NCBI GenBank assembly: GCA_016187945.1 | Contig: JACPIT010000005.1 | Coordinates: forward strand, 1,178,001-1,242,000 | Source of the DNA: Opitutia bacterium | GTDB lineage: Bacteria > Verrucomicrobiota > Verrucomicrobiia > Opitutales > Opitutaceae | Direction of reading: 5' to 3' | Length of the DNA: 64,000 bases | Shown: in pieces, positions 4,977 to 64,000 of the stretch | Layout: each line of letters begins with the position of its first letter | Position numbering within the stretch: position 1 is the stretch's first letter | Position numbers and translations under genes: made by a program | The notes under the pieces: model-generated | Told to the model about the DNA's origin: nothing | What the model saw: only the letters and a program-made list of their open reading frames with translations | Database searches by the model: none

Positions 4977-5062
4977 AAAGCCGATCTCCGACTGTTCAGA
5001 ATGGTCGTGGAGGGAAGCAAGTTGGCGGACCGGCGAGCAACGTGCAGCCGTGGCGGTAGAGG

Positions 5063-5155
5063 TGGAGCGCGTTGACCTCAACGCGCTCGGACGGGAACGG
5101 GTTGAGGTCAACCCGTTCCACCCAAAACAAAAGGCCGGTCGGAGACCGGCCCTAC
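5063..5155. repeat. REP-type palindrome cluster, second copy
   Basis: The compound seen at 2068-2180 recurs here: the GAGCGCGTTGA inverted repeat (5065-5088), a GGGTTGAGGTCAACCC palindrome in place of the AACGCGTT one (about 5099-5114), and the GGCCGGTC hairpin ending CTAC (5133-5155). Both copies carry the same CAAAACAAAA linker before the last hairpin. Confidence 0.75.
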
Positions 5156-6468: not shown

Positions 6469-6640
6469 GTAGGGCGGGACCGCTGGGCCCGCCGGAAACT
6501 TGACGCGACCCGCGAGGCGGGCCCAGCGGTCGAGACTAACCCGGATATTTAACACCCAATTTTCGATCCCGCGCCTGGCATCGAGGGTAGGGCGGCGTTC
6601 CGAGCGAAGCGGGAAAACCGGACGCGAAGCGGGCCGGGAC
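6469..6640. repeat. REP elements in carA-cupin gap
   Basis: The 390-base gap upstream of carA holds no gene. It contains a GTAG-headed hairpin (6469-6493) with stem GGCGGG/CCCGCC, an inverted partial copy CGGGCCCAGCGGT (about 6518-6531), and another GTAGGGCGG start at 6587. The same GGGCCCAGCGGTCCCGCC core recurs at 18588-18613 and, inside a gene, at 59080-59104. Confidence 0.7.
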
Positions 6641-17374: not shown

Positions 17375-17429
17375 GTGGGCCAGCGAGCTTGCTCGCGCTC
17401 CTTGGGCGCCCGCTAGCGGGCTGGCCCAC
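17375..17429. repeat. GTGGGCCAGC palindromic element
   Basis: Outer arms GTGGGCCAGC and GCTGGCCCAC form a perfect 10-bp stem enclosing two small hairpins (GAGCTTGCTC and CCCGCTAGCGGG). A similar outer stem, GTGGGCCAGCGC and GCGCTGCCCAC, lies inside the GH9 gene at 56331-56390. It is 22 bases past the res stop. Confidence 0.65.
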
Positions 17430-18587: not shown

Positions 18588-18613
18588 CGGCGGGCCCAGC
18601 GGTCCCGCCCTAC
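18588..18613 (-). repeat. GTAG-headed REP element
   Basis: Reverse-complemented it reads GTAGGGCGGGACC followed by the complementary arm GGGCCCGCC. Same subfamily as 6469-6493 and 59080-59104. Confidence 0.75.
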
Positions 18614-38975: not shown

Positions 38976-40643
<1,668 letters not shown>

Positions 40644-40830
40644 CGCTCGCAGCGCAGCGCGTGGCTCCGCGTCCTTGTCGCGCATCAGCCGCAGCGCGAT
40701 TGGGGCTAATAAGCAACAATGCCCCGCGGCTCGGCGCTCTCGCTCGGGTCGGCGTCTGCGACCTCGTGGCGTTATACGCCACGTTGCGCGACGACCGCTG
40801 AGCGGGCGCGCTCCCAGAGCCGCGGGTAAG

Positions 40831-40915
40831 CATGGAACCCCCCGAACCGGCAATCCTGCAAACGCGCTGTCTCTACACGATCCTCGACGGCGAGATCGTC
40901 TTCCCCGCGCAGTGA
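40831..40915 (+). pseudogene. Duplicated 3' fragment of the amidohydrolase gene
   Basis: Encodes PEPAILQTRCLY and GEIVFPAQ followed by the same TGA, against PEPEILQTRCLY and GEIVFPAQ in the intact gene. It has no start or body of its own; it is the leftover from the tandem duplication. The reading frame and stop are still preserved. Confidence 0.85.
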
Positions 40916-41070
40916 CTCTCGCAGCGCAGCGCAGTGCTCCGCGTCCTTGTCGCGCATCAGCCGCAGCGCGATTGGGGCTAATAAGCAACAATGCTCCACG
41001 GCTCGGCGCTCTCGCTCGGGGCGGCGTCTGCGACCTCGTGGCGTAATACGCCACGTCGCGTGCCGGTCGC

Positions 41071-42279
41071 TCAGCGCGCGCGCTCCCAGAGGCGCAGGTA
41101 GGCGCGCGCGAAGGCCGGGGCGGCGATGGCGTCGGTCTGCAACTCGCGTTGCAGGCGGGCGAGTGTGCGCGGATGGGCGAGGGCGCCGGGAGCCCAGAGC
41201 AACAGCGCGAGCGCGCGCACGAGGCGTTCGCGCACGGGCTCGAACGGGTCGCGCGAGAGCAGCGTGCGCGGGCCGGACTGTTTCAACGTCGCGAGCACGC
41301 CGCGCCACCGGCGCAGCTCCGGAAATTTCGGGCGCGGATCGAGCGCGTAGGCACGCGCGTCGGGGAAACGCGTGCCGAGGCGCAGAGCCTCGAGCCAGAG
41401 CCAGACGAGCTGTCCGACGGGTGCGAGTTGCTCCCAGTGCTCGCACAACGTTTCGCGCGAGGCGCCGGATCGCTCCGGGTGAAACTTGAACTGCACGCCG
41501 GCGGCGTGGAAGCGCAGGACGGCGTCGCGCCACTCGGGCATGCCGCCATGCGCGAGATCGAAGCGCAGGCGGCGGTGCCGCTCCTTCGCGCTCCAATGGT
41601 AGCGGTGCTGCGCGACGAGCACGGCGTCGCCGAGGGCGAGCTCGGCTTTGGCGAGATTGCGGCGCACAAAATCTGCGTCGGCGGGCGTGAAGGCCGGCGC
41701 GTCGAGTCGCTCGCGCGCGAGCAGCAGGCCGGTGAAGCGGTTCATCAGCAGCCGGGTGCCTTCCGCGAGCGGGATGCGCGGTGCGTGGCCGTGGTGCGCG
41801 CACGGTTCGAAAAATCGCGCTGCGCCGAAGAGCCGGCGATGCGCGGCGACCAGATCGTAGCTGAACATGCTGACCGGCTGGCGCGCAAATTCGGCGCGGG
41901 AGGCGATCTTGAATTCGACGTGAGCGCCCGCGTTGGCGGTGAGAATTTCCCCGAGCACCTCGAGTGCGCGCGCGTGACGCCACTCGTTCGCGTGGCGGTT
42001 GCCGCGCAGAAAAACGTAGAACTCGAGGTCGTTGTAGGGGCGCTCGCCGTCCGCCGTGGCGAGCACGCCGCCTTCGCCGCGGCCATAGCCGCCGCCGAGA
42101 TAGACCGCCTCGAGCTGGCGCGCGGGAACGAGGCCGCGCACGCCGCGCAGGACGCGCGCGCAGACGTGCTCGAGGTGGCGCTCGAGCTCCTCGCTGCCAT
42201 CCGGCGTGAAGCGCTGCTCAGGCCGGGTGCTGGAGGGCGGATACAACACGGTGCTCGGGGCGGCGGTTTCTGTGCTCAT
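41071..42279 (-). CDS. Putative nucleotidyltransferase-fold protein
   Basis: 402 residues, soluble. No family is recognised with confidence. Residues around 50-85 read YLGGGYGRGEGGVL then YNDLEFYVFLRG, which resembles the GG/GS-x10-DxD pattern of the minimal nucleotidyltransferase fold, although only one Asp plus a Glu are seen. A helical region follows, with SYDLVAAHRRLFG and AEGTRLLMNRFTGLLLARE, reminiscent of MNT/HEPN-type arrangements. The start (ATG 42279) lies 62 bases inside the upstream glycosyltransferase gene, so the two are coupled in one operon of the polysaccharide locus. A role in modifying a sugar or lipid carrier is possible but unsupported. Confidence 0.7.
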   Translation of the reverse strand: MSTETAAPSTVLYPPSSTRPEQRFTPDGSEELERHLEHVCARVLRGVRGLVPARQLEAVYLGGGYGRGEGGVLATADGERPYNDLEFYVFLRGNRHANEWRHARALEVLGEILTANAGAHVEFKIASRAEFARQPVSMFSYDLVAAHRRLFGAARFFEPCAHHGHAPRIPLAEGTRLLMNRFTGLLLARERLDAPAFTPADADFVRRNLAKAELALGDAVLVAQHRYHWSAKERHRRLRFDLAHGGMPEWRDAVLRFHAAGVQFKFHPERSGASRETLCEHWEQLAPVGQLVWLWLEALRLGTRFPDARAYALDPRPKFPELRRWRGVLATLKQSGPRTLLSRDPFEPVRERLVRALALLLWAPGALAHPRTLARLQRELQTDAIAAPAFARAYLRLWERAR

Positions 42280-48022: not shown

Positions 48023-48097
48023 GGAGGGCCCGCGTCCCCGCGGGCCGAGGCGCGTGAGCCGAAGGATGGTCGCGGCCCGCGTGGACGCGGGCCCTCC
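48023..48097. repeat. GGAG-headed REP pair
   Basis: GGAGGGCCCGCGTCC...GGGCC (48023-48046) and an inverted copy ending GGGCCCTCC (48074-48097) face each other, a BIME-like unit between convergent genes. Related GGAGGGC hairpins lie inside the GH9 gene at 57291-57363. Confidence 0.78.
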
Positions 48098-55501: not shown

Positions 55502-55874
55502 TTGGAGGCGGGGCCATCAGCCCCGCGGGTCGCTGGCCGCGAAGCTCCCGCCTCGCGGGGCTGATGGCCCCGCCTCCAACGGCCGGCATCCAGTAGCAGC
55601 CGACGTGAGTCGGCTGGGAACGCGTGGCGAAATTCGCCAGCCTCCTCACGTCGGCCGCTACGCGCGCGGCGCGACGAGCGCACCGCTGACAACGCTGCGG
55701 TGCTGAGGTAGGGCCGGCTTCAGCCGGCCCAAAGGGAGCCCGCTCGCCTTGGCTGGCCGCGAGCACCGTCGAACGGGTCCGGCTGACGCCGGACCTGCTT
55801 CGCGCGCTTCGGCGTAGCGCAGGCGTCTCGCCTGTTTCTTGCCGACCGTGCAAGCAGGCTGAAGGCCTGCGCTA
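55502..55874. repeat. Cluster of REP pairs between regulator and GH9 gene
   Basis: A 489-base gap almost filled by palindromes: a perfect 26-bp inverted repeat with GGAG heads (55502-55527 and 55554-55579), a GTAGCAGCCGACG...CGTCGGCCGCTAC pair (55593-55661), a GTAG hairpin with GGCCGGC arms (55708-55730), a TCCGGC-type hairpin near 55778, and a GTAGCGCAGGC...GCCTGCGCTAC pair (55813-55874). The last CTAC supplies the TAG stop of the GH9 gene. The GTAGCAGCCGACG type also occurs inside that gene. Confidence 0.85.
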
Positions 55875-58800
55875 CTGCTTCGCGTCCGCGCCACGCGCAC
55901 CCGCGACGTCCCACACCGCGCGGCCATCGACGCTCGCGAACGACATGCCGCGCACGCTGCGGCCTTCGAGGCCGACGACGCGCGCGGGCACTTCGACGCG
56001 CGCCCATTTTCCGACGGCGGGCAACTCGCCGATCGCGCGCCGCCCGTCGCTGCCGGCCGTGCCGTAGGTGATGACGTTCGCGCCCCAATACGCGCGGTGT
56101 TCCCAAGACGTGCCGTCGTTCCAACTCACCATCAGCTCGCGCGGCGGGTTCGCCGGATCGAGCCACACATGCACGAACAACACGTCGCCGCTCTGCACGT
56201 CGAGCGGTTCCCGCGCGTCAGCGAAGCCGTGTTCGTGCACGCCCGCGCCGCTCGCGGAGAAGTGTGCCTTCGTGCCGGAAAACGGCGCGGGCGGGAAGAA
56301 CGCGGAGCTGCCTGGTGCGGTCATCACGGTGTGGGCCAGCGCGCTCGCGCGCGCCGAATCAGGCGAGGCGCGCCCGAGGGCGCTGCCCACCGACGTTTCG
56401 CCTCGCTCGATCCAGTTCCACGGTTCACTGCCGGGTTGCTCGACCGCGCCGTTCGGCAACGCGTCGTCGACCCACGCCGTGGACGATGTGGCCACGCGCA
56501 TGTCCGTCGCGGCGAAGACACGTCGCCCGTCGGGCCACGCCACCTCCGCTTCGATCCAGTGCACGCCGCCGCGGCGCGGCGTGAACGTGAACTCGTGCGC
56601 GCGCGTCGGATCGGAGTCGCGCGTTTCCCAGATGATGTCGGCGTCGGCCAGATTCGTAGCAGCCGACGTAAGGAGGCTGGGTTCGGTGTGTGTGGCCGCG
56701 TTTTCACGCGCAGCCTCCTCACGTCGGCTTCTACTTGGCTTCGGATCGCGGCGTAAAGCCGCTCCTACAGTTTTGGGTTCGCGGATTTCCAGCCGCGCGG
56801 TCAGCGCGTCGCCGATTTGCGGTTTTTCTTTCGAGAGCACGATGCGCGCCTCCGCGGCGAGCCATGGTTGGCTCGCCGTCGGGGTGAGCGACGCGAGGAA
56901 CGCCGCGCTCACGAGTCCGCGGGCTTGGTTCGTAACGACGAACTCCGTGCTGACGTTATGCGTGTCGCTCCAGCGATCCATATAGGCGAACGGATCGCGT
57001 GCGTCGCCATCGTCGGGGAAACTCAGCATCCGTAGCGGCGTCTGCGTCGGTCCGTGATAGGGCAGGCCGGCCTGGATGTTGCCGAGCGGGAGGCCACTCG
57101 GCGGCAGCGCCCGGCGGTCGTTGTGCGCATACTGGCTGACGATCTCGCGCTGACGCAATCGGCCGAGTCCGGTGATGAAGCAACGGTTGAGCGGATTCAC
57201 GCCGCATTCGAAGTCGAGATTGCGCACGAGCGCCGCGACGTAGCTTTGCACGTCCTGTAGGAGCCTGCCTTCGCGTGCGCCCGTTCTGGCGGCCCGCCGG
57301 GAGGCGGGCCCTCCCAAATGCTCGTCCCCTATCGCCGCGGAGGGCGCGCGTCCTCGCGCGCCGAGAATGTCCGCGTCAGCTCGTTCGTCGCCTGGAGCCG
57401 ACATTTTATCGATCGCCTGCCAACAGGCTCCGGCGTCGGCGAAACCGACTTGCTCGGCGGCGAGTTGCGCGCCGACGGCGAGGTCCATCGCGCTATCGAG
57501 TGAGAAATACCAGCCGGCGTTGCGATAGTGCTTAGCCTCGACAGGAAACGCGGTGCCGTAGGCGCTCGCGTTCGTGTTGGCGAGCGCGACGTCGGCCGCG
57601 GCGAGAATCTCGCCCTCGCACAGCCGCAGGTAGCGTGCGTCGAGTTTGTCCGGCGGCAGCCGGCCCGAGCGCGCGGCGAACGCGTAGCTGCGGACCGCGT
57701 TGCCGAAGCTTTCGCTCAACCGCCACCAGCCCCAGCGTCTCGTGCGCTCGCTCGTCGGATCGGGCAGCCAGCGGAAGAGTTCGCGCTGAAAATCGGGCTC
57801 GCCGGTCGCGAGAAACAACTCGCACTCGGCCCAGGCGAGTTCGTCGTGGTGCGAGAAATTGTCGCCGTAATGCGTGAGCCGCTGGTAGGCGCCAGCGTCG
57901 CCGTGCCGCGCGAGCGCGTCGGTGAGAAATTTCCAGCCGCGTTTCGCCTGGGCGAGGTAACGCGCGGCATCATGCGGGTAGTGTTTTTTCATCGCGGGCG
58001 ACGCAGCGCATTCGGCGAGCGCGGCGACGGCCGCGGCGGTGGCGGCGGTGTTCTTCGGCCAGACGACCTGCGGCTCGCCGGCGTCGGGCAGGGCGTTGCT
58101 CTCGTAGCGGCGGTCGCGCGGATAGACGAGGAAGTAGAACCCGCCATCGTCGTCCTGGAGTTTCGCGAGGTAGTCCGCTTCCCATTTCGCTTCTTGGAGG
58201 AAGTCCGGAATGCCGTCGCCGCTCTCGGGGAGGCCGAGATTGTCGAGTGCGGCGAGACCGGGCAGCGCGTCGGCCGCGAACACGAGCGTGTGCACGAGCG
58301 CGGCGCTGTTGGTGGTGTATTTGGAATAATCGCCGGCGTCGTGGTGGCCGCCGCTGACGTCGAGCGGTCCGCGACGCACAAACGGATAGAGCTGGGATTT
58401 TTCGTCGTTCGCGAACGGATGCGGCGGACGGGAGGCTTCGCTGCGCTGCTCGGCCGCGAGTTCGCCGATGAGTTTCCAGGTGAACGGAAATTGCGCGGCG
58501 CTCGCCGGCACTTCGGCGGGTGCGACGTGACACGCCGCATGCACGAAGCGCGTGAACGGCAGCGCGTTTTCGGTGCCGCAGCGTTGGTGATAGAGTCCGA
58601 GCGCGTAGGCGCGCGCGACGGCCATCGCCGCGCCGTCGTGTATGCGGAACGGCGTGGACACGCCGAGTCCGTCGACCGCGACGCGATAGATGCCGGATTC
58701 TTTCAGCGGAGAAAAATCGGCGACGAACACTTCCCGGTAGGGCGGCGGCGTGGCCGGGAAGCCTTTGTCGATGCGCCGCACGAGTGGCCCGCGAAAGACT

Positions 58801-59501
58801 TCGCGCGCGGTGGCCGCATCGATGACGCGGAAGTCGCGCGCGGCGATCGGTAGTTCGCCGGCGCTGCCGAGGTAGTAGCCGATCGCGGCCTCTTTCGGCA
58901 GCGCGGGCGCGTAGCCGACTTCGCTGACGTGGATCGCGGGCGACTCGCGTTGCGGATCGAGCGTGGCGGTGAATTTCCAGTCGGCGGGCCAGAGGAAAAC
59001 GAATGGCGCGGCGGGTTTGCCGGCGGGTGAGAATGGGACGGGATCGCCGGGCCGGCCGTTTGGAGTCGCGCGTCCTTGCGGCGGGCCCAGCGGTCCCGCC
59101 CTACCTTCGTGTTGCGAAACTTCCACGTGCGCGCTGGCTGCGAGCGGCTGGGCGAGTTCGAGGTAGAGCCGGTTGCCGAGGCGGACGTCTTTCGTGTCGA
59201 GCGCGGCGTAGAGCACGCGACGTTTGAAGCCGACGGATTTCACGGCGAGCGGCGCGCCGTTGGCGGTGACCGCGAACGCCTCCGCCGGCGGCAGGTGCGG
59301 CGTGAAGTTTTCGCCGACGATGCCGGGGAGAATCGCAGCGTCGCCGTAGAGCGTGACGATCTCGAGTTCGAGCGTCGTCGGTGTCAGCGCGCGGAGCGCG
59401 TGATCGCCCGGGCGAGGCAGAGCGAGTTCGTTGGCGCGGGTGGAGGCGCTGGCGGCGAGCGCGAGGGCGAGAGAGGCGAGAACGGCGCGGGTGAAAAACA
59501 C
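55872..59501 (-). CDS. Exported GH9 glycoside hydrolase with REP-derived inserts
   Basis: 1209 residues. Signal peptide (1-23), cellulase N-terminal Ig-like domain (about 175-275), GH9 (alpha/alpha)6 barrel (about 290-880) with the Asp pair in GGHHDAGDYSKYT (about 385) and the acid Glu in HNVSTEFVV (about 849), then C-terminal Ig-like and beta-sandwich domains. GH9 enzymes cleave beta-1,4-glucans. It is paralogous to the next gene (59891). Compared with that paralog it has four extra segments, at about residues 131-166, 699-750, 907-952 and 1037-1057, each coded by palindromic repeat sequence. The stop TAG comes from another such repeat. None introduces a frameshift, so the gene is intact on paper. 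Whether the protein folds is unknown. Confidence 0.88.
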   Translation of the reverse strand: MFFTRAVLASLALALAASASTRANELALPRPGDHALRALTPTTLELEIVTLYGDAAILPGIVGENFTPHLPPAEAFAVTANGAPLAVKSVGFKRRVLYAALDTKDVRLGNRLYLELAQPLAASAHVEVSQHEGRAGPLGPPQGRATPNGRPGDPVPFSPAGKPAAPFVFLWPADWKFTATLDPQRESPAIHVSEVGYAPALPKEAAIGYYLGSAGELPIAARDFRVIDAATAREVFRGPLVRRIDKGFPATPPPYREVFVADFSPLKESGIYRVAVDGLGVSTPFRIHDGAAMAVARAYALGLYHQRCGTENALPFTRFVHAACHVAPAEVPASAAQFPFTWKLIGELAAEQRSEASRPPHPFANDEKSQLYPFVRRGPLDVSGGHHDAGDYSKYTTNSAALVHTLVFAADALPGLAALDNLGLPESGDGIPDFLQEAKWEADYLAKLQDDDGGFYFLVYPRDRRYESNALPDAGEPQVVWPKNTAATAAAVAALAECAASPAMKKHYPHDAARYLAQAKRGWKFLTDALARHGDAGAYQRLTHYGDNFSHHDELAWAECELFLATGEPDFQRELFRWLPDPTSERTRRWGWWRLSESFGNAVRSYAFAARSGRLPPDKLDARYLRLCEGEILAAADVALANTNASAYGTAFPVEAKHYRNAGWYFSLDSAMDLAVGAQLAAEQVGFADAGACWQAIDKMSAPGDERADADILGARGRAPSAAIGDEHLGGPASRRAARTGAREGRLLQDVQSYVAALVRNLDFECGVNPLNRCFITGLGRLRQREIVSQYAHNDRRALPPSGLPLGNIQAGLPYHGPTQTPLRMLSFPDDGDARDPFAYMDRWSDTHNVSTEFVVTNQARGLVSAAFLASLTPTASQPWLAAEARIVLSKEKPQIGDALTARLEIREPKTVGAALRRDPKPSRSRREEAARENAATHTEPSLLTSAATNLADADIIWETRDSDPTRAHEFTFTPRRGGVHWIEAEVAWPDGRRVFAATDMRVATSSTAWVDDALPNGAVEQPGSEPWNWIERGETSVGSALGRASPDSARASALAHTVMTAPGSSAFFPPAPFSGTKAHFSASGAGVHEHGFADAREPLDVQSGDVLFVHVWLDPANPPRELMVSWNDGTSWEHRAYWGANVITYGTAGSDGRRAIGELPAVGKWARVEVPARVVGLEGRSVRGMSFASVDGRAVWDVAGARGADAKQ
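56330..56391. repeat. GTGGGCCAGC-type palindrome inside GH9 gene
   Basis: GTGGGCCAGCGC (56331) pairs with GCGCTGCCCAC (to 56390) around two small GC hairpins, as in 17375-17429. Translated in frame as VGSALGRASPDSARASALAH. The paralog goes straight from WNWVTASPA to PFSGTKAH at this site. Confidence 0.75.
56656..56767. repeat. GTAGCAGCCGACG REP pair plus third REP inside GH9 gene
   Basis: GTAGCAGCCGACG (56656) faces ...CGTCGGCTTCTAC (to 56734), followed by a GCGGCGTAAAGCCGC hairpin ending CTAC (56764-56767). The same pair, in the same order, lies outside the gene at 55593-55661. It encodes the stretch from KTVGAALRRDPK to LLTSAATN, absent from the paralog. Confidence 0.82.
57257..57363. repeat. 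GTAG and GGAG REP elements inside GH9 gene
   Basis: GTAGGAGCC at 57257, a hairpin GGCCCGCCGGGAGGCGGGCC ending CTCC (57291-57315) and a GGAG-headed hairpin with GGCGCGCG/CGCGCGCC arms (57339-57363). The GGAG types match 48023-48097. It encodes part of an about 50-residue insert (DILGARGRAP, GGPASRRAART) before SYVAALVRNLDFE. Confidence 0.8.
59080..59104 (-). repeat. GTAG REP element inside GH9 gene
   Basis: On the minus strand GTAGGGCGGGACC and the arm GGGCCCGCC, the same subfamily as 6469-6493 and 18588-18613. It encodes GRAGPLGPP, at the start of an about 36-residue insert lacking in the paralog. Confidence 0.82.
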
Positions 59502-59890: not shown

Positions 59891-62800
59891 TTATGGCAGG
59901 GTGGCGCCGGGTTTGGCGCGGCCGGTGACGTCCCAGGTGGCGCCGCCGCCGTAGCTGGAGAAGCACATGCCGGTGACGCTCTTGCCTTCGAGGCCGACGG
60001 CGGAGGCGGGGAGTTCGAGGCGAACCCACTGGCCGGCGGCCGGGAGCGCGCCCGCGTTGTAGCGCGAGACGGTGCCGGTGGTGCCGTAGCCGATGTTGTT
60101 GGCGCCCCAATAGGCCCGGTGCTCCCACGAGCTGCCGTCATACCAGTGGAGCATGATCTCCGTGGTGCCCGACGCGACGTAGACGTAGGCGTAGAGCGTG
60201 TCGCCGGTGCCGATTTGCATCGGAGAGCTGGCGCCGAGGAACGAGTGTTCCTTGTTGCCGGTGCTGCCGCCGGTGGTCTGGTGCGCCTTCGTGCCGGAGA
60301 ACGGCGCGGGGCTCGCCGTGACCCAGTTCCACGTGTCGCCGCCGGTGTTGGTCGAGGCGTAGGCGCCGGAGGGCAGCGCGTCGTCGACGAACTTCACGAC
60401 GGAGGCGTCGGCTTGGAACGTGCTCGCGGCGGAGACGCGGCGGCCGTCCGGCCACTCGACTTCGACTTCGACCCACTGGTCGCCGGTGCTCTTCGGTTGG
60501 ATCGCGTAGCTGGAGCCGTAGGCGGGTTCCTGCTCGCGGGCTTCCCAAACGATGCGGGCGCCGGTGAGGTCGAGGGTGGAGTTGACTTGGAGCGTCACCA
60601 GCGAACCGACTTCGACGACGTTCGTCGGAGTGACGATCGTGAGAACGTTCGTCGGCTTCCAGGCGCCGGTGGCCGCGGTGGTTTTAGTGGCGAGGAACGC
60701 GGTCGCGAGGAGCGCGCGGCCTTGGTTCGTGTGCACGAACTCCGTGCTCACGTTGTAGGCGTCGGCCCAGCGGTCGTAGAACGGCAGGGTGGTCGCCACG
60801 GAGTTGTCGTCCGAGGGGAAGGTCAGCGCGCCGAGCTCGCTCGTGTAAAGCGGGAGGTAGGCGAAGCTGCCCTGGACGTTGCCCTGCGGGATGCCGGATT
60901 GCGGGAGGACGCGGCGGTCGTTTTGCGCGTATTGGTGGACGATCTCGCGCTGACGTTTCGTGCCGAGGCCGGTGAGGTAGGAAACGTTCACCGGGTTGGT
61001 GCCGCCTTCGAAGTTCATGTTCGCGAGGAGGCCGGTGATGTAGTCGGCCTTGGGCGAGATCTGATAGGCGACGGCCATGTCCATGGCTTGGTCGAGGGAG
61101 AAATACCACCCGGCCGAGCGCATGTGCTTCGTCTCCTCGGGGAACGAGGTGCCGTAAGCGGACTGGTTGGACCACCGCAGCGAGTCGTCCGCGGCGGCGA
61201 CGATCTGCGCTTCGCATTTGGCGAGGTAGGTGGCGTCGAGCGCGGCGGTGCGGCCCGAGCGGGTCGCGAAGGCGTAGGAGCGGATCGCGTTGCCGTAGGA
61301 CTCGTAGCAGCGCCACCAGCCCCAGCGGAAGGTCGCGGGGTCGGAGGGATCGGGGAAGTATTCCTTGATCTTGGTGGCATACTGCGACTCGCCGGTGGCG
61401 AGATACATTTCGACCGCGGCCCAAGCGAGCTCGTCGTCGTGCATGGCGAAATCGCCATAGTGCGTGATCTTCTGGTAGGCGCCGGTTTTGCCGTATTTGG
61501 CAAAGGCGTTCATGAGGAACTGCCAACCGAGCTTGGCCTTCGTGAGATAGGCGGCGGCTTCGGTCGGGTAGTATTTCTTGAACTGCGGCGACGACGCGCA
61601 CTGCGCGAGCGCGGCCACGGACGCGGCGGTGACGGACGTGGTCTTCGGCCAGACGATCTGCGGATCGCCGTGATCGGGCGTGACGTTGTTCTCGTAGCGG
61701 CGCTGCGCGGGGTAGACGAGGAAGTAGAAACCGCCGTCGGCATCCTGGAGCTTCGCGACGAAGTCCGCTTCCCACTTGGCTTCCTGGAGGACGTCGGGGA
61801 TGCCGTCGCCGCTTTCGGGCAGGCCGAGGTTGTCCATCTGCGCGACGCCGGAGACCGAGTCGACGGCGAACGTGAGGATGTGCGCGAGGAGCGCGGCGTT
61901 GCTCGTGTATTTCGAGTAGTCGCCGGCGTCGTGGTGGCCGAGCGAGACGTCGATCGGGTTTTTGTTCACCCACGGATAGAGCATCGAAGCTTCATCCTTG
62001 AGCTGCGGCGCGGTCTGCGAGGGGTTGGCGTTCGCGCTTTCCTGGGCGATGACGGACCAGGTGTAGGCGTAGGCCGAGCCGGTGGGGATCGAGGCGGGCG
62101 CGGTGTGGCACGCGTCGTGGACGTGGCGCGTGAACGGCAACGCGTTCGAGCCGCCGCAACGCTGGTGATAGAGGCCGAGCGCATAAGTGCGCGCGAAGGC
62201 CATCGGGATGCCCTCGTTGATCATGAACGGCAGCGAGGCGCCGTAGCCCGGGACGACGAGGCGGTATTCGCCGGGCGTCGAGAGCGAGCTGAAGTCGGCT
62301 TCCATGACTTTCGTGTAAGGCGCGGGCGTGTAGGTCCAGCCGGCTTCGACGCGCGGCGCGAGCGAGCCGGTGAATTTCACGGCGCCGGTCGCAGCATCGG
62401 CGATCTGGAACTGCGTGCCCGCGGGCACGTCGAGTTCGCCGAGGTTGCCGAGGAGGTAACCGACCATGGCCTTCTTGGGGAGGCCGGGCGCGTAGCCTTC
62501 CTGGTTCACGTGGATCGCGACGCTTTCGCGCATCGGCTCGGCGACGGCTTTGAATTCCATCGAGGACGGCCAGAGCGAGGCGTCGGAATTTTTCACTTCA
62601 ACGGTGGCGCCGGCGGGGACCGCGGAGGCGAGCTCGAGGATGAGCGCGTTGTCGATGCGGAGATCGCGGACCTGCAACGGCGCGTAGAGCGGGCGGCGCT
62701 TGAAGCCGACGCGAGAGACGGCGACGTTAGCGCCGTTCACGGTGACCTGGAACTTGGAGGTCGTGGGCGCGTTGAACACGTTGGCCGAGACGAAATCCCA

Positions 62801-64000
62801 GCTATCGGGAGCGGACGCGGTGGCGTCCTTGCTATTGATGCGACGCAGCTCGACGAATGTCGGCGCGAGGATGTGCAGCGCGTGATCGCCGGAGACGGGC
62901 ATCTCGAGCGTCGTGTAGTCGACGACCTCGGGCGAGCGCGTGCTCGGTGTGACGGTGCCGCCAGAGCCGGTGGAGCCGCCCGTGCTGCCGCCAGTCGAGC
63001 CGCCCGTGGAACCGCCGGTCGAGCCGGAGGAAGAGCCGGCGTCGGCGATGGAGAGCGTCAGCGAGTTCGTGTTGAGCGTGAGGCCGGAGATTGCGGCGAA
63101 CGTGAACGTCGCGCTTTCGGTGCCCTCGGTTTCGGTGTCGGTGACGGCTTGGAGCGTCATCGTGGCGGACGCGGAGCCGGCCGGGATGGTGAACTCCACC
63201 GGCATGTCGCCGGCCGTGCGGCGGTAATCGACCCATTTCGTGGCGGTGCCACCGAGCGTGAACGGCACGGTGAGCGCGGCGGACGTGTCGCCCGTGCGGG
63301 TGAAGGTCAGCGCGACGGTGTCGCCCTCGGTGACCGAGGTCGCGCCGGCGGCGATGCTGAGCGTCGGCGTGGTGGTCGGAGGCGGAGTCGTGGTGCCGCC
63401 GGTCGAGCCGCCCGTGCTGCCACCGGTGGTCGGCGGCGGCGTGGTCACGCCGGGATCGTTGATCGCGAGCGTGAGGACGCTCGTGCCGAGGGTGTAGCCG
63501 GTGACGGGCTGAAGCGTGAAGATCGCGGTCTCGCTGCCTTCGGTTTCCGCATCGGTGACGGCTTGGATCGTCAGCGCGGCGGAAGAGACATTGGCGGCGA
63601 GCGTGATCTCGGTCGGCATGTCGCCGGTGGTGCGACGGTAGTCGTTCCACTTCGTCGCGGTGCCGGTGAGGGTGAACGGAACGGTGATCGCGGACGCGAG
63701 CGAGCCGGTGCGCGTGACGGTGACGATGGTGGTGTTACCTTCGTTCACGATGACGTTGTTCGCGGAGATGTTCAGGGTGGGCGCGACACTCGAATCGCTG
63801 CCGTTGCCGTTGATGGTGACGGTGGCGGAGCTCGGTGAGCCGACGCCGTAGCCGGTGGCGGGCGTCATGCTGAGTGTGAAGATCGCGGTCTTGCTGCCGC
63901 TGGGGAACGCGCCGGCGGGCGACGCGATCGTCATGGAGGCGCTGGTGGCGCCGGCGGGAATGACGATGCTGGTCGGCATGTCGCCGTTGGCGGTGCGGTA
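59891..64000 (-). CDS. Exported GH9 glycoside hydrolase with Calx-beta repeats, N-terminus outside window
   Basis: At least 1370 codons; the frame is open through the window edge (YRTANGDMPTS), so start and signal peptide lie beyond. From the N-terminal side: at least three Calx-beta domains (each with NEGN/TEGD, TKWxDYRRT-GDMP, TEGSE/TEGTE), Gly-Ser-Thr and Pro-Thr linkers, a cellulase N-terminal Ig-like domain, GH9 barrel with the Asp pair in GHHDAGDYSKYT and the acid Glu in YNVSTEFVHT, and C-terminal beta domains with GTKAHQTTGG and YDGSSWEHRAYWG. It is a paralog of the preceding gene without its repeat inserts. It probably acts on beta-1,4-glucan outside the cell. A terminator follows. 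Confidence 0.9.
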   Translation of the reverse strand, partial: YRTANGDMPTSIVIPAGATSASMTIASPAGAFPSGSKTAIFTLSMTPATGYGVGSPSSATVTINGNGSDSSVAPTLNISANNVIVNEGNTTIVTVTRTGSLASAITVPFTLTGTATKWNDYRRTTGDMPTEITLAANVSSAALTIQAVTDAETEGSETAIFTLQPVTGYTLGTSVLTLAINDPGVTTPPPTTGGSTGGSTGGTTTPPPTTTPTLSIAAGATSVTEGDTVALTFTRTGDTSAALTVPFTLGGTATKWVDYRRTAGDMPVEFTIPAGSASATMTLQAVTDTETEGTESATFTFAAISGLTLNTNSLTLSIADAGSSSGSTGGSTGGSTGGSTGGSTGSGGTVTPSTRSPEVVDYTTLEMPVSGDHALHILAPTFVELRRINSKDATASAPDSWDFVSANVFNAPTTSKFQVTVNGANVAVSRVGFKRRPLYAPLQVRDLRIDNALILELASAVPAGATVEVKNSDASLWPSSMEFKAVAEPMRESVAIHVNQEGYAPGLPKKAMVGYLLGNLGELDVPAGTQFQIADAATGAVKFTGSLAPRVEAGWTYTPAPYTKVMEADFSSLSTPGEYRLVVPGYGASLPFMINEGIPMAFARTYALGLYHQRCGGSNALPFTRHVHDACHTAPASIPTGSAYAYTWSVIAQESANANPSQTAPQLKDEASMLYPWVNKNPIDVSLGHHDAGDYSKYTSNAALLAHILTFAVDSVSGVAQMDNLGLPESGDGIPDVLQEAKWEADFVAKLQDADGGFYFLVYPAQRRYENNVTPDHGDPQIVWPKTTSVTAASVAALAQCASSPQFKKYYPTEAAAYLTKAKLGWQFLMNAFAKYGKTGAYQKITHYGDFAMHDDELAWAAVEMYLATGESQYATKIKEYFPDPSDPATFRWGWWRCYESYGNAIRSYAFATRSGRTAALDATYLAKCEAQIVAAADDSLRWSNQSAYGTSFPEETKHMRSAGWYFSLDQAMDMAVAYQISPKADYITGLLANMNFEGGTNPVNVSYLTGLGTKRQREIVHQYAQNDRRVLPQSGIPQGNVQGSFAYLPLYTSELGALTFPSDDNSVATTLPFYDRWADAYNVSTEFVHTNQGRALLATAFLATKTTAATGAWKPTNVLTIVTPTNVVEVGSLVTLQVNSTLDLTGARIVWEAREQEPAYGSSYAIQPKSTGDQWVEVEVEWPDGRRVSAASTFQADASVVKFVDDALPSGAYASTNTGGDTWNWVTASPAPFSGTKAHQTTGGSTGNKEHSFLGASSPMQIGTGDTLYAYVYVASGTTEIMLHWYDGSSWEHRAYWGANNIGYGTTGTVSRYNAGALPAAGQWVRLELPASAVGLEGKSVTGMCFSSYGGGATWDVTGRAKPGATLP
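62950..63033 (-). repeat. In-frame Gly-Ser-Thr linker repeat
   Basis: Tandem 12-bp units encode (GGST)n between the last Calx-beta domain and the Ig-like domain. A shorter similar tract is at about 63365-63440. These are coding linkers that may vary in copy number. Confidence 0.8.

Follow-up and report, generated by a model that had tools for sequence, protein, structure and literature searches.

Different families of REP palindromes occupy shared in-frame sites in protein-coding genes of Opitutaceae bacteria

This work deals with a GH9 enzyme gene, GH9a (55872-59501, minus strand; 1209 amino acids with CelD_N and Glyco_hydro_9 domains), located in a 64,000-nucleotide stretch from an Opitutia bacterium of the family Opitutaceae, and with the four insertions of repetitive extragenic palindromic (REP) sequences that it bears. 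We refer to the whole stretch analysed (G000:C9:1178001-1242000) as the window and to its genome, of 5.47 Mb in 16 contigs, as G000. Our data show that REPs and REPINs (inverted REP pairs) are inserted in frame in genes of this bacterium, and make it quite probable that loops tolerating such insertions were refilled by different REP families across species. The same slot was found with different occupants in all four genes examined (GH9, HrpA, MeaB and CusA), which were picked because G000 bears inserts in them.

The adjoining paralog, GH9b (59891-63979, minus strand), was used for comparison and lacks all four inserts according to both the protein alignment and a scan with the family consensuses, which found zero REP family matches in it at up to 5 mismatches. 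With respect to this paralog and to other relatives, GH9a has extra residues at about 131-168, 682-752, 906-950 and 1031-1070. The first-pass annotation, made from the sequence alone, had proposed four additional stop-free segments, and the alignment together with the DNA bears this out, since all four insertions keep the reading frame and contain zero stops. All four segments were located, the second one reaching 57434, beyond the proposed end at 57405. They had also been equated with palindromes of the kinds present at 18588, 48023, 55593 and 17375 of the window, and the family matches (F7b, F8, F6 and F9) agree with this. Both of the heads described there, GTAG and GGAG, were found, and GTGG heads (F9 and F4) have to be added to them.

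Five or six REP families, with GTAG, GTGG or GGAG heads and mostly as inverted pairs, make up the inserts of GH9a. Insert 1 (59033-59104, minus strand; inside residues ~131-168) is an F7b REPIN whose intact unit, 59080-59104, is identical in 25 of 25 bases to the F7b units at 6469-6493 (plus strand) and 18589-18613 (minus strand); its partner unit, 59033-59057, is degenerate, with 6 mismatches counted by eye. Insert 2 (57257-57434, minus strand; inside residues ~682-752) has an outer GTAGGAGCCTG REPIN, an old element common to the ortholog of genome G008, which in G000 is interrupted by a nested inner pair of GGAG-headed F8 REPs (57291-57362; units 57291-57314 and 57339-57362). The GGAG ends of this inner pair face each other and the pair resembles the F8b REPIN at 48023-48097; the F8a consensus was typed from GH9a itself, so its 0-mismatch match there is circular. 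Insert 3 (56656-56768, minus strand; inside residues ~906-950) is composed of an F6 REPIN (56656-56734), which resembles the one at 55593-55661, and an F1 unit (56746-56768) with 0 mismatches. Finally, insert 4 (56331-56390, minus strand; inside residues ~1031-1070), absent in the G008 ortholog, is an F9 REPIN that resembles the one at 17375-17429; its better unit has 3 mismatches and the partner was located by eye. None of the five copies mentioned outside GH9a was called in-gene by the coding model, and the inner F8 pair and the F8b, F6 and F9 REPINs outside GH9a carry no strand assignment.

These families are far above chance level. At up to 4 mismatches, the 14 family consensuses matched 352 units in 182 clusters in 922 kb of real sequence and gave 0 matches in one 922-kb order-2 Markov shuffle. 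GTAG directly precedes hairpins (stem of at least 7 bp) 109 times, 5.4 times the 20.4 expected, and the only tetramers ranked above it, AGTA and TAGG, both overlap GTAG; as head variants, F8 has GGAG and F9 and F4 have GTGG. Two units were found in 90 of the 182 clusters and one unit in 63, and the two-unit clusters are inverted with heads outward in 85 of 90 cases and belong to one family group in 84 of 90. The elements have the traits of GTAG-type REPs and REPINs, namely a head followed by a hairpin, high copy number, inverted pairs, cognate REP-associated tyrosine transposases (RAYTs) for several families and a mostly extragenic location. Copy numbers differ strongly between genomes: counting units at up to 2 mismatches, with a reversed-pattern control that was 0 in all 13 genomes, there are 383 F1 units in G000 and 4 in G008, 64 F7b units in G000 and 34 in G005, and 112 units of the GTGGGAGGGGCTTTA family in G008 and 15 in G000. 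Two arrays of the window located ~3 kb apart (2064-2180 and 5061-5155) contain an F4 pair and an F3b unit in the same order.

The absence of the inserts is not peculiar to the paralog. A contig scan with a single GH9 protein gave no loci and the scan with an alignment gave 79; of 84 loci in the panel, the 49 open reading frames (ORFs) with both motifs were kept and the rest left out, and the resulting alignment has 51 rows representing 50 distinct proteins (L022 and L106 are one gene), orthologs and paralogs together. Inserts at sites 1, 2 and 3 are limited to GH9a and its G008 ortholog (2/51, 2/51 and 2/49 rows), site 4 is filled in GH9a only (1 of the 14 rows reaching that far), one further site is filled in G008 only (1/51), and the flanks of the insert sites align across the panel, as the first-pass annotation had asked of a supporting alignment. 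The nearest ortholog, that of G008, a metagenome-assembled genome (MAG), is an intact ORF with its own in-frame REPs, which argues against an assembly artefact in G000. It shares three of the insert positions, but the refuting outcome named by the first-pass annotation, the same conserved segments in distant orthologs, did not arise: its sites 1 and 3 hold REPINs of the GTGGGAGGGGCTTTA family, unlike the G000 occupants, and at site 2 only the outer REPIN is common to both, the later sequence inside it being different. At site 3 the first REPs of both species coincide in position and phase, and their stems differ by compensating changes (GTAGGAGCGGCTTTACGCCGC vs GTGGGAGGGGCTTTAGGCCCC). Three of the four G008 sites lie within 5 codons of a G000 site, a coincidence reached in ~0.04% of trials of uniform placement over 1000 codons; this rejects uniform placement and is compatible with selection for tolerant loops. 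As a separate observation, the paralog contains near its start two 245-nt copies with 73% identity (63035-63279 and 63449-63693) with glycine-threonine linkers between them, which we take to be Calx-beta-like.

The HrpA-type helicase gene (C9:1164665-1169293, ~9 kb to the left of the window; identified by an HrpA match in PDB and with Pfam) has five insert sites, A to E, that hold palindromes of different families in different genomes. It was matched in 27 other genomes, 20 of which were read, giving with G000 21 orthologs, 12 of them of the genus (G000 included); G011, with a broken frame, G013, G037-G040 and G047 were left out. At site E, where the G009 and G004 sequences end at contig ends, G000 carries F5b/F5, G001 and G008 carry the GGGGCCGTTGCCC family, and G005 carries F7b; the inserts of G002 and G007 form no clear hairpin, and G003, G006 and G012 have no insert. 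At site A, F5-type elements are found in G003 and G012, and both G005 and G008 have the GGGGCCGTTGCCC family; G000, G001, G002 and G007 contain other sequence, and the site is empty in G004, G006, G009 and G010. Most occupants belong to families that recur in their own genome, as there are 35 F5b units in G003 and 29 in G012, and the GGGGCCGTTGCCC family has 31 units in G001, 21 in G008, 10 in G005 and 0 in G000. Site B is empty in 8 of the 12 genus genomes, including G001, G007, G008 and G002, which group with G000 in the core tree (support 0.985; the inner order is weak), and holds palindromes of differing sequence in G000, G005 and G006 and an insert without clear hairpin in G010. Parsimony at site B, with G010, G014, G015, G018 and G019 left unscored, requires 2 gains; starting from a single gain, 5 losses would be needed. 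Long inserts occupy sites B to E of the G015 ortholog as well.

Two further genes show the same behaviour. The MeaB-like GTPase (Pfam; L173:4793-6154 in G000 and L278 in G005), matched in 8 of 13 genomes, has a slot at the junction of its two domains which is filled by F1 in G000 and by F7b in G001 and G005, and has no insert in G009 and G004; G003, G007 and G002, whose slots have 9 to 13 residues that are extra or different, were left unassigned. In G000 and G005 this protein also has a second extra repeat, SRVGGAESAGLRVGGA, in its GTPase part, which is absent in five of the other six orthologs, the sixth not reaching this position. The other gene (L174:12243-15611, that is, G000:C9:1052243-1055611) encodes a pump with a Pfam ACR_tran domain that we presume to be CusA-like; it was matched in 10 of 13 genomes and the five with at least 81% identity were compared, with no reading for slot 1 of G012 and slot 2 of G005. 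At slot 1, inserted at one and the same place behind a lysine codon, G000 carries F5 and both G001 and G005 carry F7b, and G007 has no insert; at slot 2, G000 has an insert and G001, G007 and G012 have none. Both REP inserts of the G000 pump directly follow ...CGAAA (the lysine codon), and their positions look like matching spots of what we assume to be the two symmetrical halves of the pump.

The core of GH9a, compared between G000 and G008 over 982 codons, has a dN of 0.20 and a dS of 0.73 (dN/dS ~0.27) and is therefore under purifying selection in spite of the inserts. In an AlphaFold2 model of GH9a (41 sequences; mean pLDDT, the predicted confidence per residue, 84.2; pTM 0.83; model residue equal to protein residue minus 21) the five stretches of at least 3 residues with pLDDT below 50 all fall inside the four inserts. 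The low-pLDDT inserts fall between predicted secondary-structure elements and insert 2 is modelled as partly helical, and the inserts are probably largely unstructured loops according to this model.

The number of in-gene copies was surveyed in 1.722 Mb of G000 (C9 500001-1422000 plus the first 400 kb each of C12 and C2), with in-gene calls made by a hexamer coding model and random placement simulated with five draws per cluster. This sample contains 605 REP units in 327 clusters, of which 30, spread over 24 ORFs, are in frame within genes, compared with 148 by random placement; in-gene insertion is therefore strongly purged (~5-fold depletion) and yet common, with about one cluster in eleven persisting in frame. 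These 30 include likely chance matches, C12:7027 and an F1 match at C9:1266137, the latter presumably in an adenylation-type motif. GH9a has 4 of the 30, the HrpA-type helicase 3 (5 by eye) and a 1079-amino-acid protein, which looks to us like a 2-oxo acid dehydrogenase fusion, has 2. Some peptides recur in unrelated proteins, like VGAALRRD...KAAPT (F1 REPINs) and GRANPPDEP (F5). Read head first, the in-gene F1 units (n=8) are in phase 0 in 6 cases, in phase 1 in one, and in one in the phase closed in the consensus, which is likely a chance match; F5 and F5b are in phase 1 in 4 of 4 cases, and the phases of F7b, F9 and F3b, with few units each, are mixed. The favoured phases of F1 and F5 encode charged, proline-rich peptides. 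A 528-amino-acid protein (G000:C9:668848-670431), which we assume to be a sugar kinase, has an F7a REPIN mid-protein, and its last ~25 residues (KIVGAALRRD...KAAPTT) look encoded by an F1 REPIN.

Candidates for moving these elements are present in the genome. G000 has 8 Y1_Tnp matches, one of the 8 proteins being scored as a fragment, and single-family REPs lie near 5 of the 8 genes. Four of these genes are flanked on both sides, by F3b, F1, F5 and F9 respectively (for F9, with 2 to 3 mismatches), and the fifth has F8b on a single side. Another gene has F8b-like units nearby at 4 and 6 mismatches. Five of the 8 proteins score above the cut-off of 80 for the NCBIfam family REP_Tyr_transpos, and the F1-flanked one scores 74.8, below it. 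According to this, the GH9a families F1, F8b and F9 likely have a cognate RAYT, and in all likelihood RAYTs move these elements.

Taken together, REP and REPIN hairpins would be moved by family-specific RAYTs of the same genome, and most in-gene insertions would be lost through a frame break, the TAG of the head or a disturbed fold. The survivors would be those with a length multiple of three, an open phase and a loop position, giving largely unstructured peptides. A loop that tolerates one element would tolerate the next, and codon-level slots could in this way be refilled by locally active families, sometimes by insertion inside an older element, as may have occurred in insert 2. The inserted peptides would be translated, most simply as near-neutral additions. 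The first-pass annotation had suggested that such elements spread into genes and create new peptide segments; our data support insertion, and the new peptides stand as coding capacity only. We further consider it conceivable, though doubtful in this strong form, that the genus has inherited landing slots which are emptied and refilled by RAYT-driven REPIN families, perhaps with the resident REP or its scar as preferred target; the proteins of each species would then have loops specified by the palindromes now mobile in it.

Several results weigh against insertion and refilling as a complete account. Among the 8 Y1_Tnp genes of G000, no cognate RAYT was found for F6, for F7b or for the outer GTAGGAGCCTG element of insert 2. 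When a target signature was sought in the REP flanks, the only regularities were a base ahead of the head that is fixed within each family (T in 97% of 117 for F1, G in 96% of 30 for F5, G in 94% of 18 for F7b and C in 86% of 50 for F6) and an abundance of A in the upstream flanks, unproven as a target. Occupants are not always a common family of their host, as at HrpA site E the F5b unit of G000 has no other exact copy in that genome (6 at up to 2 mismatches), and several have no clear hairpin, among them those at site B of G010 (z -0.5), at site E of G002 (z -0.7) and G007 (z -0.5), and at site D of G007 (z 0.7). The F5 arms of HrpA site D are identical in G000 and G001 and nearly identical in G002, which reflects inheritance instead of re-insertion, and parsimony is undiscriminating at sites D and E (2 changes, or one gain plus 1 or 2 losses). 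The low pLDDT of the inserts in the model also reflects missing homologs in the insert columns. Furthermore, 30 clusters have coding sequence of the same strand on either side and are out of frame or at the edges of genes, compared with 11 by random placement, and may include broken genes.

A rather unlikely explanation, which nevertheless fits several of our data, is that each slot received one ancestral insertion, which gene conversion or concerted evolution later overwrote in place with the prevailing REP family of the genome. From species to species the slots begin at the same codon, both species have the outer REPIN of insert 2, the outer GGTAGGG/CCCTACC is common to several families, and the shared position and phase of the first REPs at GH9 site 3, with their compensating stems, make replacement in place possible at that site. 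We have set it aside as a general rule because HrpA site B, filled in G000 and empty in the other members of its clade, needs 5 losses, and because the F5 arms of site D in G000 keep the G001 and G002 variants and depart from the F5 consensus of G000 itself; re-insertion accounts best for the refilled slots.

It seems less probable still that the inserts are adaptive, with the peptide or an mRNA hairpin being useful as a linker, in pausing or in mRNA stability. The uneven phases of F1 and F5/F5b, with their charged, proline-rich peptides, and the 4 of 30 clusters accumulated by GH9a alone would fit this idea, but the mixed phases of F7b, F9 and F3b, the ~5-fold depletion in genes, and the fact that most homologs lack the inserts, that orthologs have different sequences in them and that they are largely predicted to be unstructured speak against it. 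That the segments lie outside the protein, because of a pseudogene, an assembly artefact or ribosome bypassing, is hardly credible: the G008 genome is a MAG and the case rests on assembled sequence, but bypassing and artefact are rejected by the intact G008 ORF with its own in-frame inserts and by the core dN/dS, and skipped segments would need neither frame nor stop-freedom.

As an observation unrelated to these elements, the window also contains a 272-nt head-to-tail duplication with 91% identity (40559-41102).

These genes constitute a natural repeated experiment of mobile DNA adding peptide to proteins in a bacterial genome larger than 5 Mb. They also yield a catalogue of loops that tolerate insertion in HrpA, CusA, MeaB and GH9 proteins, together with a route to study REP targeting.

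In-gene elements of this kind are not new to this bacterial family: in the available text of Di Nocera et al. (2013; PMC3733652), intragenic GTAG REPs are already described in Opitutus terrae, a member of the same family, as single and double insertions in ORFs with RNA helicases among the targets. Those excerpts give homolog alignments for N-terminal REPs of other species only, and the comparison here is genus-wide and covers 4 of 4 genes; moreover, we add empty-site evidence, in-gene families tied to RAYTs and four loci, including a nested one, in one protein. The same text mentions different REPs at about the same recB site in two Xanthomonas species and suggests that they form loops or linkers. 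Beyond this remark on recB, our literature search, with most subscription journals outside it, found no earlier report of REP slot reuse. What appears to be new is therefore the existence of codon-level slots common to distinct families across a genus, with occupants drawn mostly from the REP stock of their own genome and with empty-slot evidence for independent gain.

Other systems share part of these features. As in Pseudomonas, according to the parts of Bertels and Rainey (2011; PMC3116915) at hand, the inverted REP pair is the unit and several families are each tied to a RAYT; REPIN excision has been seen there in reads, and 14 of 1,067 REP 16-mers overlap genes in P. fluorescens SBW25, a figure obtained by a different way of counting from our 30 of 327 clusters in frame. 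The enterobacterial RU elements are likewise small mobile sequences that add peptide to proteins, and in the excerpts of Delihas (2007; PMC2759123) they are longer and MITE-like (miniature inverted-repeat transposable elements), of 103 to 168 bp. The likeness to the Rickettsia palindromic elements (RPEs) drawn by the first-pass annotation holds in part. As RPE-4, RPE-6 and RPE-7 do in the available portions of a study of R. japonica (PMC3767692), the elements described in this work form in-frame palindromic inserts in ORFs whose orthologs have another element or none; in that study, shared loci hold different RPE groups or none, with the frame kept and in solvent-exposed positions. However, RPE-4 and RPE-6 are CGTC-type and apparently have no dedicated transposase, according to the excerpts of PMC3733652, whereas the heads found here are GTAG, GTGG or GGAG, the families are distinct and multi-copy, several of them have RAYTs, and at one slot the closest relatives have no insert. 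The authors of the R. japonica study, in the text available, favour a common origin followed by divergence and still regard hotspots as not negligible, and our results bear directly on that question, left open in Rickettsia, of a hotspot versus one ancient insertion that diverged.

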